DNA of 64,000 nucleotides, from positions 2,119,001-2,183,000 of the forward strand of contig NZ_CP012401.1 in assembly GCF_001305595.1 (NCBI RefSeq), in the 5' to 3' direction. Below, one piece after another: positions 7,459 through 12,800 of the stretch (the stretch's first letter is position 1; each line of letters starts with the position of its first letter). Made by a program: the position numbers and the translations under genes. The notes beneath the pieces were generated by a model. It searched no databases, was not told the origin of the DNA, and saw only the letters and a list, made by a program, of their open reading frames with translations. The DNA is from Azospirillum thiophilum. GTDB taxonomy: Bacteria > Pseudomonadota > Alphaproteobacteria > Azospirillales > Azospirillaceae.

Positions 7459-7518
7459 CCACCGATCGCGATCCATCATATAGAGCCAATGACTGCGACA
7501 AGTTGCCGCGGTAATGAG

Positions 7519-7550
7519 GCCCCTCTCTCTATTCGAGAGAGGGGCTTTTT
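7519..7550 (+). terminator. rho-independent terminator of aroQ-accB-accC
   Basis: A perfect 11-bp stem (7519-7529 with 7535-7545) closes a 5-base loop and is followed directly by five T residues. It is 60 bases after the accC stop codon. Confidence 0.9.
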
Positions 7551-7937
7551 ATTTACATAATTTCGTCATATGAGATTTTTCTACTTCATCGTCGCGCACG
7601 ATGATTTTCGCATTTTGGAAATTGACCAGAAAATTCGCGTTTCTATTCGCAAAATGCGAATCCAGGGCAGTCGGCAAGCCTGTTTCGACATACCGGAGTG
7701 CGTCTGGCGGAGCTTGCTGCCCATAAGGGTTGTTCCGGAGGCCGGCTTTCCGGACAAGCCGGTGCATGTGGCACGTCTCTTGCTGTTTTGATCTGGGTCA
7801 GTGCGGGGTGATGCCCACCCAGGGTAGATGAAACAACCTTCCGATCTCCGTCCTGAACCACCGTTCCTTCCGCAAGGTGCGGTGTTCCTTGTTTTGCCGC
7901 TCCCTGCCAGAGCCTATTCTCCGACGAGGCCCCGTCC
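7551..7937. other. AT-rich gap before the chemoreceptor gene
   Basis: No convincing gene is present. Short frames on both strands (73 and 72 codons) lack the third-position GC bias and any recognisable motif. An 11-bp inverted repeat, TTCGCATTTTG at 7607-7617 and its complement at 7650-7660, spans 54 bases and is the clearest structure. The chemoreceptor promoter is expected here, but no clean -35/-10 pair was found. Confidence 0.5.
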
Positions 7938-10421
7938 ATGCGTGTGAACGAACCGATCAGCAACCGTGAAATCGTGATGGAAGACGGCGTCCTGCTGGTG
8001 TCGCGCACCGACACGGGCGGGCGCATAACCTTCGTGAACAAGGCCTTCGTGGATATCAGCGGATATGCGGAAGACGAGCTGGTCGGCGCACCGCACAATC
8101 TGATCCGTCACCCCCACATGCCGAAGGAGGCCTTCGCCGACCTGTGGGCGACGATCAAGGACGGGCGGCCGTGGGAAGGGTTGGTGAAGAACCGCACCAA
8201 GGCGGGCGACTTCTATTGGGTCCGCGCCAACGTCACCCCCGTGATCGAGGATGGGAGGATGACCGGCTTCATCTCCATCCGCACCAAGCCGTCGCGCGAT
8301 CAGGTGGCTTCGGCCGAACAGCTCTATGCCGACATCCGCGAAGGACGGGCACGCCATCTGACGGTGCGTGACGGGCAGGCGGTCGGGCGCGGTGCGGCGG
8401 CATCCCTGCGGCGCTGGTCGGCCAGCATCACCGGCCGGCTGACCATGATCTTCGCCTTCATGGTCCTGTCGATGCTGGCGGTGGGCGGTGTCACCCTGCG
8501 CGGCATGGCCGACAGCAACGCCTCGCTGAAGACGGTGTACGAGGACCGGACGGTCCCGGCAGTGCAGATCGGCGAGATCCTGGACCATATGCGCGACCAG
8601 GTGCAGACGCTGCAGACCCTCGTCATCGATACCCGCGACGGCAGCGACGCCAAGGTGATGGCCGGTCGCCAAGCGCGGATCTCCGGCAATACCGCCGCCA
8701 TCGACCGGCTGTGGGCGGATTATCTCACCACCTACCTGACGCCTGAGGAGAAGGTACTGGCGGAGCGCTTCGGCAAACAGCGCGCCGCCTTCGAGGCCGA
8801 CGGGCTGAAGCCGGCGCTGGATTTGGCGGGCCAGGGTGATTCGCTGCGGCTGGAAGTGCTGGTGCGCGACCGGATCGAGCCGCTTTTCCAGGCCGCCTTC
8901 CAGACCAACAAGGATCTGCTGACCCTGCAGTTGAACGTCGCCAGGGCGGAGTATGAAGGGGCGCTGGTCGATTTCCAATGGCATCTGGTCTTTGCCGTCG
9001 CGGCCGGGCTGGCCGTGCTGATCGCGGCGGTGCTGTGCGGCCTGCTGCTGCTGCGCACGGTGCGCCGGCCGCTGGCTGCCTTCTCGACGGATTTCGACGC
9101 AATCGCCCGCAACGACCAGTCCCATATCATCGACCTGCCGGCGGAGGCCGAGTTCCACCCGGTGGCCGGCCAACTGCGCGGGCTGAAGGCCCGGCTCTGC
9201 TATGCCGTGCAGGAGCGTGTGGAGCGCGCCCGCCATGCCGACGAGGAGCGGCGTCAGGCGCTCGAGGCGATGGCTTCGACCGTGGAGCGCGAAGCCGGGC
9301 GCGCGGTGGAAGAGGTGGCGCAGCGGACCGGTGCCATGGCCGACGATGCCGAAGGCATGTCGGGATCGGCCGAGCGGGTCAGCGTCAACGCGCAGACGGT
9401 GGCCTCGGCCGCCGGGCAGGCGCTGGCCAACGCCCAGACCGTCGCTGCCGCCAGCGAGCAGCTGGCCGCCTCGATCCGCGAGATCTCGTCCCAGGTCGCC
9501 CATTCCAGCGAAGTGACCCGCCGCGCGGTGGAGAATGGCCGCAACACCCAGACCACCATCCGCTCTCTGTCTGAGACGGTGTCGAAGGTGGGCGAGGTGG
9601 TGAACCTGATCCAGTCGATCGCCGGCCAGACCAACCTGCTGGCGCTGAACGCCACCATCGAAGCGGCACGGGCGGGCGAGGCCGGCAAGGGCTTTGCAGT
9701 GGTGGCGCAGGAGGTGAAGAACCTCGCCAACCAGACCGCCAGCTCGACCGAGGAGATCACCCGCCAGATCACCGCCATCCAGGCGGTGACCGACGATGCG
9801 GTGCAGGCGGTGGAGGAGATCGGCCGGACCATCGCAGAGATCGACCATATCGCCGGCTCCATCGCCGCGGCGATGGAGGAGCAGGCCGCCGCGACCCAGG
9901 AGATCAGCCGCAACGTGGTGGAGACCTCCACCGCCGCGCAGGAGGTGTCGCACCGCATTGCCGCGGTGTCGGAGGAGGCCGACCGCACCGGCGAACAGGC
10001 CACCCAGGTCAAGAACGGCTCCGGCGACGTCGCCCGCTCCATCGAGGCCCTGCGCATGGTGCTGGTCCGCATCGTCCGCACCTCCACCGGCGATGCCGAC
10101 CGCCGGCGCAAGCCCCGCTTCCAGGTGGAGGAGACGGGAACCCTGCTGGTCGGCGGCGACCGGCTGGCGGTGACCGTGCGCAACCTGTCGATCGGCGGCG
10201 CCATGATCGATCCGGTGACGGCGACGGACGGCCGCTCGCTCGCCGGGGCCATCGGTCACTTGCGGCTCGACCGCTATGGGGCCGAGGCCACGGTCGTCGT
10301 GAAGGCGGTGGAGCATAAGCGCATCCATCTCGCCTTCGATGCCAAGGAGATGTCGCGCGACTTCACCCGCGCCGTGGAAATGGCGACCAACGGCCGCCCG
10401 CCGGTCGATGCGGCTGCCTGA
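7938..10421 (+). CDS. Aer-like chemoreceptor with PAS, HAMP, MCP and PilZ domains
   Basis: The 827 residues show five parts in order. An N-terminal PAS domain (about 18-125) has the NLIRHPHMP wording of Aer-type flavin-binding receptors. Membrane helices lie at about 165-187 and 351-374, flanking a periplasmic helical region. A HAMP segment follows, then a methyl-accepting signalling domain whose hairpin tip (about 556-595) has the invariant [18 protein letters not shown] core. A C-terminal PilZ domain (about 720-815) has RRRKPRF and NLSIGGAMI, the c-di-GMP-binding signature. PilZ-bearing energy-taxis receptors of this design are known from Azospirillum brasilense. It probably couples redox or oxygen sensing to the chemotaxis kinase and is tuned by c-di-GMP. 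GAGG precedes the ATG by 8 bases. Confidence 0.92.
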
Positions 10422-10433
10422 CCTGTCGCAGCC

Positions 10434-11852
10434 ATGACCGACGGAAGGATGACTGACGAAAGGGGCCCCGAGGGACGGCAGGAGCCGGTGGAGGCGCAGG
10501 TGACGACCCTGCTGGTCGCCGGCACGTGCTGCCCGCCTGTGCGCGCATCGCGGATCGCCCGGGCATTCGCCGGTGTCCTGATGCGGGTGGAGACGGTCGA
10601 CGGGGCGCTGGACCGTCTGCGCGGCGGCCGGGACGCGGGCGGGGCCGGTGTCGTCCTGCTGGACGGGGATGCTGCCACCGCCGAGGCGGTCGGGGCACTG
10701 GCACGGCTCGATCCTGCGCCGGCTGTTCTGGTCCTGCTGCCGGAGGAGAGGCATGCCGATGCCGCTGCCTCGATCGCTGCCTTGATCGCGGCCGGTGCGC
10801 AGGATGTTCTGGCGGCGGACGATGCCGTTGCCCTGGGCCGTGCGGCGGACAGTGCCCGGCTGCGTCAGGTGCGGGAGAACCGGCTGCGCGCCGCGCTGGC
10901 GGCGGCGGAGCGCGGCAAGGCCGAGGCTGCCGCGCTGTTCGATGCGGCCGGTGCCGCGGTGGACGCGGCGCTCGATCCGATGCTGGCGCTTGCGGATGCC
11001 GCGCTGGACTCGCTGCTGTTGCCGAGCCAGCACGACCGGCTGACCGAGTTGCGGGTGGCGGGGGCGGCATTGCGCGCCACGCTGTCGGCGCTGGGCGATG
11101 CGGCCGGGCCGGCACTGGAGGAGACGGTGACGCTTGCCGGTCTGGCGGGCGCCGCGAACGCCATGGGCACCAGCACCGTGACGGCGGATGCGGAGTCATG
11201 CGGGCGGTTCGTCGGCGATGGCGCCGGGCTGCGGGCGCTCCTCTCCGTGCTGACGGCCGAAGGCGGAGCGGTGCAGACCCTGGCGTTGCAGCCGGCGGGA
11301 GACGCTGCCGAACTGGTTCTGCGGCGCCGGGGTGATCCCCGGCTGCGCCCGCTGGTGCTGGCTGCGGCCCGTCCCCTGGTGCGGCGTTTGGCCGGCCGCC
11401 TGCTTTCCGATGCCGGGGACGGGTTCTCCATCCACATCCCGGTGCGGCCGGTGGAGACGCCTGCCGCCCTGTCGGTGCTGCTGGTGGAGGACAATCCGAT
11501 CGGCCGTCTCGTCGCCGCCGGCTTCTTCCGGGCGCTCGGCCATGGCGTGACGACGGCGGAGGACGGGGCGCAGGCATTGGCGGCGGCGGCCGGCGGCGGC
11601 TTCGACCTGATCGTGATGGATGTGCAGATGCCGGTGATGGATGGACATGAGGCGTCGCGCGCCATCCGCGCGCTTCCCGGCAAGGCCGGCCGGGTGCCGA
11701 TCGTGGCGCTGACCGCCGGGACCGATGCCGCGGACGACGCCCGATGCCGCGCTGCCGGAATGGACGACTGCCTGCACAAACCGCTGACCATGGACCGGCT
11801 GCGCGCGATGCTGGAACGCTGGTTCCCGGGACGGGTCCAGGCGGCTGGATGA
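10434..11852 (+). CDS. degenerate kinase-receiver protein (pseudo-REC, pseudo-kinase, REC)
   Basis: The protein has 472 residues and lies 12 bases after the chemoreceptor. Residues about 24-140 look like a decayed receiver domain (TTLLVAG, then VVLLDGD). Residues about 165-225 resemble a dimerisation helix pair, but the usual catalytic His is absent: the matching spot reads ALDPMLAL. Residues about 255-336 resemble an ATPase lid that lacks the N and G boxes. The C-terminal receiver (about 345-465) is intact, with Asp396 in VMDVQMP and Lys449. I infer a receiver-output or phosphate-sink protein that works with the chemoreceptor. The N-terminal assignments rest on pattern only. Confidence 0.7.
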   Translation: MTDGRMTDERGPEGRQEPVEAQVTTLLVAGTCCPPVRASRIARAFAGVLMRVETVDGALDRLRGGRDAGGAGVVLLDGDAATAEAVGALARLDPAPAVLVLLPEERHADAAASIAALIAAGAQDVLAADDAVALGRAADSARLRQVRENRLRAALAAAERGKAEAAALFDAAGAAVDAALDPMLALADAALDSLLLPSQHDRLTELRVAGAALRATLSALGDAAGPALEETVTLAGLAGAANAMGTSTVTADAESCGRFVGDGAGLRALLSVLTAEGGAVQTLALQPAGDAAELVLRRRGDPRLRPLVLAAARPLVRRLAGRLLSDAGDGFSIHIPVRPVETPAALSVLLVEDNPIGRLVAAGFFRALGHGVTTAEDGAQALAAAAGGGFDLIVMDVQMPVMDGHEASRAIRALPGKAGRVPIVALTAGTDAADDARCRAAGMDDCLHKPLTMDRLRAMLERWFPGRVQAAG

Positions 11853-11991
11853 CCCGCGGTTCCGGAGCAAATTGTCGCAAACTTTACAGCGCCAAAACCA
11901 TATTCCATGCGCCCGTAACCGACCGGCGGTTGCCTGCCGCCGGTCCGGACGGTATCAGTGGGATGCGGCGAATTGGCGTTGAGGATCGGGA

Positions 11992-12396
11992 ATGGACATG
12001 CAGGCGATCGATTACTCCCAGCATCGCATCCTGGTCGTCGAAGACCAGCCCTTCGTCCGCCGCACCATCATCCAGATTCTGGGGCAGATCGGTTTCCGCG
12101 GCATCGCCGAGGCCGACAACGGCGAGACCGCGATGCAGGAATGCATCCGCGTGAACCCCGACCTGATCGTCTGCGACATCGACATGAAGCCGGTATCCGG
12201 CCTGCAATTCCTGGCCCGGCTGCGCGCCAGCACCGAGGCTGCCAACCCCCGCGCTCCCGTGGTCTTCCTGACCAACCACACCGAATCGGAGATCGTGAAG
12301 CAGGCGATGACGCTGGGCGTCAACGGCTTCGTGGTCAAGCCGCCGTCATTCGCCGCCCTGAAGGAGCGGGTCGACCGGCTGTTGGGGGGACGCTGA
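11992..12396 (+). CDS. CheY-like single-domain response regulator
   Basis: The 134 residues form one receiver domain. The acidic pair lies in VVEDQPF, the phosphoryl-accepting Asp62 in CDIDMKP, the conserved Thr in VVFLTNH and the Lys in FVVKPPS. There is no output domain, so it must act by protein contact, for example at a motor switch or in a phosphorelay. GAGGATCGGGA precedes the ATG. It is 139 bases after the degenerate kinase gene and may belong to the same signalling block. Confidence 0.88.
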   Translation: MDMQAIDYSQHRILVVEDQPFVRRTIIQILGQIGFRGIAEADNGETAMQECIRVNPDLIVCDIDMKPVSGLQFLARLRASTEAANPRAPVVFLTNHTESEIVKQAMTLGVNGFVVKPPSFAALKERVDRLLGGR

Positions 12397-12401
12397 GAGC
12401 G

Positions 12402-12800
12402 GTGCCGGCTTTTCCCACTTCCGGCCGGGGACGATTCGGGCGGCGTGCCGGCGCCTCCGCCGCCCTCGCCTTGGCGACCCTTGTTCTTTCCGCCTGTTCC
12501 GGCGAGCCGTCGGAAGGCGACATGCGGCGGTTGGTGGAGACGCACACGCGCCGGGCGCTGGAATGGCAGGGCAATGCCGGTTTCCGGGCCTTCGACAATT
12601 TCCGCAAGCAGGGCTGCGTCGAGGCGAAGCCTAAGGCCGGGCAGGGGAATGGTCAGGATGGAGCGCCGTACGACTGCTATTACGCCGCCACCTTCGTGCC
12701 GCAACCGGGGCAGCCGGCGCTGACGGTCAACGGCAAGGGGCGGTTCCGCCGCACCGACAAGGGGTTGACCTTCGAGGATCTGGGCGCCCAGCCGCGTTGA
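12402..12800 (+). CDS. putative small lipoprotein of unknown function
   Basis: From the GTG at 12402 the frame encodes 132 residues. A basic N-terminus, a hydrophobic stretch and the lipobox LSAC (about residues 29-32) predict a lipid-anchored protein. The mature part has two further Cys (GCVEAK, DCYYAA) that could form a disulphide, and ends in a strand-rich segment. The gene begins 5 bases after the CheY-like gene, whose end supplies the GGGGGG ribosome-binding region, so the two look co-transcribed. I do not recognise a family. Confidence 0.7.
   Translation: MPAFPTSGRGRFGRRAGASAALALATLVLSACSGEPSEGDMRRLVETHTRRALEWQGNAGFRAFDNFRKQGCVEAKPKAGQGNGQDGAPYDCYYAATFVPQPGQPALTVNGKGRFRRTDKGLTFEDLGAQPR

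Follow-up and report, generated by a model that had tools for sequence, protein, structure and literature searches.

P1 is an open reading frame of 472 amino acids at 10434-11852 (+) of the window, as we call the whole 64,000-nt stretch of Azospirillum thiophilum DNA analysed here, and it stands directly behind a chemoreceptor gene. The locus raises the question of what such a kinase-like protein has kept, and whether it belongs to the chemoreceptor beside it. The first-pass annotation, which gave the frame exactly the boundaries found here, had read P1 as a decayed kinase carrying one intact receiver and coupled to the chemoreceptor. Its observation on the protein is right and understated; the link to the chemoreceptor is not conserved. 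P1 is a decayed REC-HisKA-HATPase-REC hybrid kinase, recognised by its frame, its orthologues and its start context. Among 45 genomes of the genus (the 7.6-Mb window genome, G000, included), P1 was found in 10 and went undetected in 35, and the ten orthologues, window copy included, were aligned. The ORF is not a chance one, since the frame is open in all ten genomes, with an N-terminal half 50-59% identical to the window copy, and dN/dS is below 1 in every part.

Three decayed parts and one intact receiver

The pseudo-DHp (residues 158-222; 10905-11099, +), delimited by hhalign, the model helices and fold matches, is a helical hairpin without a phospho-acceptor His: D177 (codon 10962-10964, +) aligns with that residue of intact HisKA domains (SHEIRTP). 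Across the ten orthologues the site reads D, A, E, A, A, A, V, A, E and G, with His in none, which bears out the earlier remark that the expected catalytic His is replaced (ALDPMLAL, residues 179-186); the H-box Pro, P182, is unchanged in all ten. The pseudo-CA (residues 223-340; 11100-11453, +) is a truncated Bergerat-like fold, traced by profile alignment, model and fold matches; in the alignment with intact kinases its N and G1 boxes are changed, and the F and G2 boxes, which make up the ATP lid, are missing. Pfam lists no HisKA or HATPase in P1 at E up to 10 (a range in which the HMMER filters drop most matches above 0.1) and none in the ten orthologous N-terminal halves, in agreement with the proposed loss of the ATP-binding boxes. 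The HisKA domain with its His and the HATPase_c boxes of a hybrid histidine kinase are thus gone, and what is left, DHp and CA homology and fold with the catalytic residues lost, is that of a pseudo-histidine kinase. Phosphotransfer pseudokinases of the RcsD type carry an HPt domain; Pfam lists none in P1 or in its L020 orthologue. As for an unrelated domain family, only DUF3145 (E 0.11) and DUF2239 (E 0.21) came up, each in one of the ten members, and the profile and fold evidence was preferred.

A third decayed part, missed in the first-pass annotation, is an N-terminal pseudo-receiver (residues 22-140; 10497-10853, +), which Pfam does not detect. It has a receiver fold, with beta/alpha alternation in the model, and lacks the phosphotransfer residues: alignment with intact receivers shows that the acidic pair, the Thr and the Lys are lost. 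D77 is kept in all nine orthologues that have the domain; the tenth, the G035 copy (L028 8033-9067), starts 5 nt past the stop of a REC-PAS-GGDEF gene and is without it.

The case for kinase ancestry is carried by sequence profiles. In hhalign, the profile of residues 131-341 (A3) matched that of seven intact kinases (A5) at 86.9% (E 4.2e-6, 183 columns), the pseudo-receiver (A4) matched eight intact receivers (A6) at 80.5% (E 1.3e-5), and two mismatched controls gave 1.6% and 0.1%, all with shallow profiles (Neff about 1.8) and E-values that are those of single comparisons. Against PDB sequences, profile A3 gave six matches at E up to 10, none of them significant for kinases: the best, RPB_PLP3_R6 (E 0.00013), is a repeat-like chain whose match was put down to composition, and the histidine-kinase chains 7z8n_A and 7n0e_A stood at E 0.17 and 0.61.

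Predicted structures point the same way. The AlphaFold model of full-length P1 shows a beta/alpha domain from residue 25, a long helix (131-191), a second helix (197-222), a mixed alpha/beta domain (229-339) and the receiver (347-463); its pTM is 0.42, and the arrangement of the domains was not relied on. Foldseek with the whole chain gave its best E-value for ShkA (6qrj, E 1.1e-12), but with TM 0.24 and rmsd 17.8, and also reached LvrB (8vc9, E 1.1e-8, TM 0.22-0.27). In VIA, only residues 343-467 were covered by at least a fifth of the 50 matches listed for the full-length model, and among these 50 there was no histidine-kinase core. Because receivers fill this list, residues 131-341 were folded alone, which gave an AF2 model of higher confidence (mean pLDDT 83.6, pTM 0.68). 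Its 50 best Foldseek matches are histidine-kinase cores (E 7e-8 to 1.1e-5), at a modest TM by query of 0.33-0.53, with a RetS chain, ZraS, plant phytochrome A, the SrrAB kinase, GacS and DivL (4q20) as the best. By VIA, the CA part matched ShkA (Z 12.8, 111 residues, 2.6 A), both parts together matched a RetS chain (Z 12.0, 169 residues, 5.6 A), and the DHp part matched the ERS1 DHp (Z 9.5, 95 residues, 2.1 A), the last a weak match when taken alone, because for helical bundles a Z of less than about 13 may be nothing unusual. Profiles and predicted structure thus both recover DHp and CA-like folds in residues 131-341, as the reading of a decayed kinase would have it, and the contrary outcome, a model with neither fold, did not arise.

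The C-terminal receiver (residues 345-466; 11466-11831, +) is intact. It provides the single Pfam match on P1 (PF00072, 348-460, 82.3 bits for a cut-off of 30.2), and its fold agrees with those of GacS D1, CheY and other receivers at Z 18.5-19.7 (VIA). The phospho-acceptor D396 (11619-11621, +) and the conserved K449 (11778-11780, +), whose retention had already been pointed out, are identical in all ten orthologues together with E352, D353 and T427, so the full active site with its acidic pocket is present. Judged from these residues, D396 would be the sole complete phosphorylation site in P1, the N-terminal receiver being without the standard chemistry residues. As a separate observation, the G034 orthologue (L023 9200-9234) has an altered sequence past the start of its last receiver helix, as though the end of the gene had been removed by a deletion.

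Gene order and a possible ancestor

P1 lies between the chemoreceptor gene (MCP; 7938-10421, +) and R3 (11992-12396, +), the gene of a single-domain receiver. R3 gives one match per genome in 45 of 45 (E <= 1e-40), is far more constant than the genes 5' of it, and stands directly downstream of P1 in all ten P1 loci. The full block, seen in 7 of the 45 genomes, reads MCP, PAS-HK, CHASE-HK, receiver, REC-PAS-GGDEF, P1, R3 (domain names from Pfam on one member). Two genomes have MCP, CHASE-HK, P1, R3, with a scar besides the one gene between MCP and P1, and the window genome alone has MCP, P1, R3. P1 is missing from the whole block in three genomes, from the order MCP, CHASE-HK, R3 in one, and from seven in which nothing was detected between MCP and R3; a 4.6 kb contig of one further genome carries CHASE-HK, receiver, REC-PAS-GGDEF, R3. 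In the remaining 23, no MCP or block was found near R3 at the thresholds used; in at least two of these, parts of the arrangement occur at another place, in G029 the block with a P1 relative and an MCP, in G014 a pair of receiver and REC-PAS-GGDEF.

MCP and P1 as a conserved functional pair is a reading that we rejected, as four genes lie between them in seven of the ten P1 loci and one gene in two, and 11 of the 45 genomes have the MCP in the R3 locus without P1. The proposed coupling to the chemoreceptor thus finds no support as a general trait of P1: of the ten genomes, the window genome is the only one in which the two genes adjoin. In G022, the beginning of the lone-receiver gene is fused to the final codons of REC-PAS-GGDEF, and the same tail precedes P1 in G033; because of these fused or leftover tails, the genes in question were lost there, not never gained. 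The window keeps no remnant of the block, and we infer its loss from the gene order of relatives; searched with the REC-PAS-GGDEF and CHASE-kinase proteins, the window genome gave partial matches only, at 34-52% identity. The adjacency of MCP and P1 looks like the result of gene deletion and not like a conserved partnership.

The junction from the MCP stop to the P1 ATG measures 12 nt (10422-10433, +). GAGG stands 4 nt 5' of the P1 ATG in five of the seven full-block relatives and is missing in G035 and in the window; the L020 orthologue has GAGG, but its first start codon, a GTG, comes 19 nt later. The start context ATG(A/G)CCGA is common to the window and five of the seven full-block relatives. 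With GAGG missing, P1 in the window may rely on reinitiation after MCP. Terminator-like sites on the + strand were found at 7516-7548 (with 7522-7544 inside) and 7870-7882, and none from 7883 to 12500, so MCP, P1 and R3 could form one transcript; the scan matches a consensus, and its 4 sites on both strands are not above chance (2.4 expected). The site at 7516-7548, between a biotin carboxylase-like gene and MCP, is a strong terminator-like hairpin of 14 pairs. The MCP itself consists of PAS, 4HB and MCP signalling domains and a C-terminus that resembles PilZ and, at 22.4 bits, narrowly misses the Pfam cut-off of 22.5; the combination of PAS and PilZ recalls Azospirillum brasilense Aer as described in PMC6406031.

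P1 was found in part of one genus. Two peptide patterns, which divergent orthologues can escape, found six P1 loci in the GTDB genome collection, all in Azospirillum. Of the 82 genomes searched in the order, 13 gave matches to profile A2: the ten with P1, and weakly G046, G054 and G038, which were not counted. The matches in G046 and G054 sit in larger ORFs that also match receiver and kinase queries; at the G038 match, no listed ORF matched a query.

Two proteins hint at what P1 once was. A 661-aa protein of G017 (L108) carries receiver, HisKA, HATPase, receiver and HPt in one frame (Pfam). The G029 gene (L029) encodes receiver and HisKA in one frame and HATPase, receiver and HPt in the next; it lies behind REC-PAS-GGDEF, the place that P1 occupies in seven of its ten loci, and before an MCP 64% identical to that of the window. 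In this assembly, the G029 gene (about 7600-9532) has a frameshift near the HATPase start. Both proteins share the domain order of P1, but in them, unlike in P1, Pfam recognises every catalytic domain, and they carry an HPt besides. P1 is 32-33% identical to the G029 protein in the N-terminal half and 54% in the receiver; at E 0.001, profile A2 did not detect G029. In a receiver tree of 60 rows, drawn from a list limited to 50 matches (hits shorter than 108 residues, with stops or duplicate were left out), the P1 receivers form one clade (100/99) whose sister is unsettled, with a long-branch warning, and kinship with G029 is neither supported nor excluded. Orthology of P1 to the G029 gene is thus suggested by gene order, architecture and the 32-33% match, and the ancestor of P1 was probably a hybrid kinase of a two-component/c-di-GMP operon, once with a C-terminal HPt.

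Selection and possible roles

Mean pairwise dN/dS (Nei-Gojobori counts, our own script) is 0.475 for the pseudo-receiver (36 pairs), 0.43 for the helix with the pseudo-DHp and 0.57 for the pseudo-CA (45 pairs each), and 0.14 for the receiver (45 pairs). The same-locus controls gave 0.12, 0.24 and 0.31 for DHp, CA and sensor of the CHASE kinase, 0.21 and 0.20 for DHp+CA and PAS part of the PAS kinase, 0.10 and 0.24 for receiver and GGDEF of REC-PAS-GGDEF, 0.09 for the lone receiver, 0.14 for R3 and 0.09 for MCP residues 400-690. Over four pairs, the N-terminal half stands at 0.456 (bootstrap 0.389-0.535) and the receiver at 0.097 (0.063-0.145). By these values, the N-terminal half is relaxed yet not neutral, and the receiver is strongly constrained and resembles the intact ones beside it; such selection is what speaks for a continued part of P1 in signalling; pairs that contain the window copy show no visible relaxation of the receiver (0.149 in 9 pairs vs 0.138 in the other 36).

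We give roughly even chances to the reading, drawn by analogy, that P1 is a pseudokinase which would dimerise via its DHp and offer its receiver as a phosphoryl acceptor to other kinases. As far as its residues tell, P1 should be unable to autophosphorylate, because the His is absent and an ATP site cannot be recognised. Its DHp hairpin, together with the long helix that leads into it, would keep P1 dimeric or let it dock onto other DHp domains, and histidine kinases would phosphorylate the C-terminal receiver in trans, so that P1 would serve as a phosphate sink or a competitor. The nearest precedent is RetS, whose REC2 does this for GacS. In relatives, the donors could be the PAS kinase and the CHASE kinase of the operon, neither of which carries a receiver of its own (Pfam); without the block at this locus, the window genome would have to rely on another kinase or an HPt. 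Several facts weigh against such an acceptor. Searches with the REC-PAS-GGDEF and CHASE-kinase proteins gave partial matches only, so most of the suggested donor system is absent from the window genome, and the function must be dispensable, since 35 of the 45 genomes have no detected P1; besides, the receiver C-terminus is altered in G034 and the pseudo-receiver is absent in G035.

A doubtful but serious alternative is that P1 is an allosteric pseudokinase, the scaffold of the first-pass annotation, whose pseudo-DHp would heterodimerise with or dock on an intact kinase (or bind a phosphorylated receiver, like DivL) and alter its activity, with the P1 receiver as the switch. Residues 141-222 are the best conserved decayed part (mean pairwise identity 72%; dN/dS 0.43, and 0.35 in a second analysis), as would suit an interaction surface, residues 131-341 find their top Foldseek match in a chain of a RetS-GacS co-complex, and cases of this kind are described for DivL (PMC4211667) and for the heterodimer of the pseudokinase ChrS with HrrS (PMC9491836). 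Yet the dN/dS of these residues is 3.6 times that of the CHASE-kinase DHp (0.43 vs 0.12), and the search found no close CHASE-kinase relative in the window genome.

Slow decay, which we consider unlikely, would make the N-terminal 340 residues a passive tail of a gene on its way out, and the receiver a residual CheY-like acceptor of little if any use. The raised dN/dS of the decayed parts, the deletions around P1 in several lineages, the absence of P1 where block parts remain (G011, G042, G016, G020, G030), the lack of GAGG before the window start and the altered receiver end in G034 all fit such a course; the frame that stays open in ten of ten genomes, the four-pair contrast between the two halves and the unrelaxed receiver of the window pairs do not. 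That the pseudo-receiver senses c-di-GMP or another ligand and so controls the dimer, as ShkA's does, is very improbable: P1 follows REC-PAS-GGDEF in seven of ten loci, ShkA has the best whole-chain Foldseek E-value and its pseudo-receiver is described as binding c-di-GMP (PMC7010744), but that domain is central in ShkA according to the same source and N-terminal in P1, and one P1 orthologue does without it.

Returning to the phosphoryl acceptor, a longer and frankly speculative history may be sketched, one that we regard as a long shot. P1 would mark a route from a hybrid kinase to a stand-alone phosphate acceptor on a dimerising pseudokinase stalk, with input, catalysis and HPt decayed. In the window strain P1 would have survived the loss of the REC-PAS-GGDEF and CHASE-kinase genes, probably of the two further block genes as well, and a deletion would have placed it in the chemoreceptor transcription unit, where it might buffer phosphate from chemosensory or other kinases.

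P1 among known systems

One genus presents a ladder of states, from relatives with all domains through ten decayed orthologues, one of them without the pseudo-receiver, to the same site without P1, and this ladder would allow a direct test of the idea that a receiver can persist as a phosphate sink after its kinase has decayed. No paper on P1 was found by title or abstract opening in a non-exhaustive search of openly licensed PMC literature. The architecture had been called seldom described, which is half right: missing-His domains are rare, with 722 of 76,471 sampled HisKA domains (0.9%) reported in PMC12632262, but pseudo-histidine kinases are a recognised class, as that source, PMC4211667 and PMC9491836 indicate. 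A survey of this type would probably not count P1, as its kinase part has decayed beyond Pfam recognition.

RetS of Pseudomonas aeruginosa has a membrane sensor and two C-terminal receivers. Like P1 it is a hybrid kinase, it acts on another kinase, and its chains are among the best fold matches of residues 131-341; unlike RetS, P1 shows no Pfam sensor domain, begins with a pseudo-receiver and has just one receiver at its C-terminus. The REC2 of RetS is described as taking phosphoryl groups from GacS, as a phosphate sink, and RetS as having transmitter phosphatase activity (PMC5992135). ShkA of Caulobacter (6qrj) is likewise a kinase with a pseudo-receiver, but an active one with another domain order. 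DivL, also of Caulobacter, carries a Tyr in place of the His, takes its input through PAS domains and is without a receiver; P1 matches its fold (4q20), but lacks the ATP lid as well and keeps a receiver. For DivL, a histidine-kinase fold with neither kinase nor phosphatase activity is described (PMC4211667). LvrB is presented as the prototype of Rec-controlled histidine kinases, an active kinase with a phosphorylatable receiver (PMC13269768); its REC-DHp-CA order is that of the N-terminal two thirds of P1, which is not of this type, having lost the residues for both functions and having a C-terminal receiver in addition. Such proteins are thus known in general, and P1, seen in some genomes of a single genus, is a pseudokinase whose receiver is still live.
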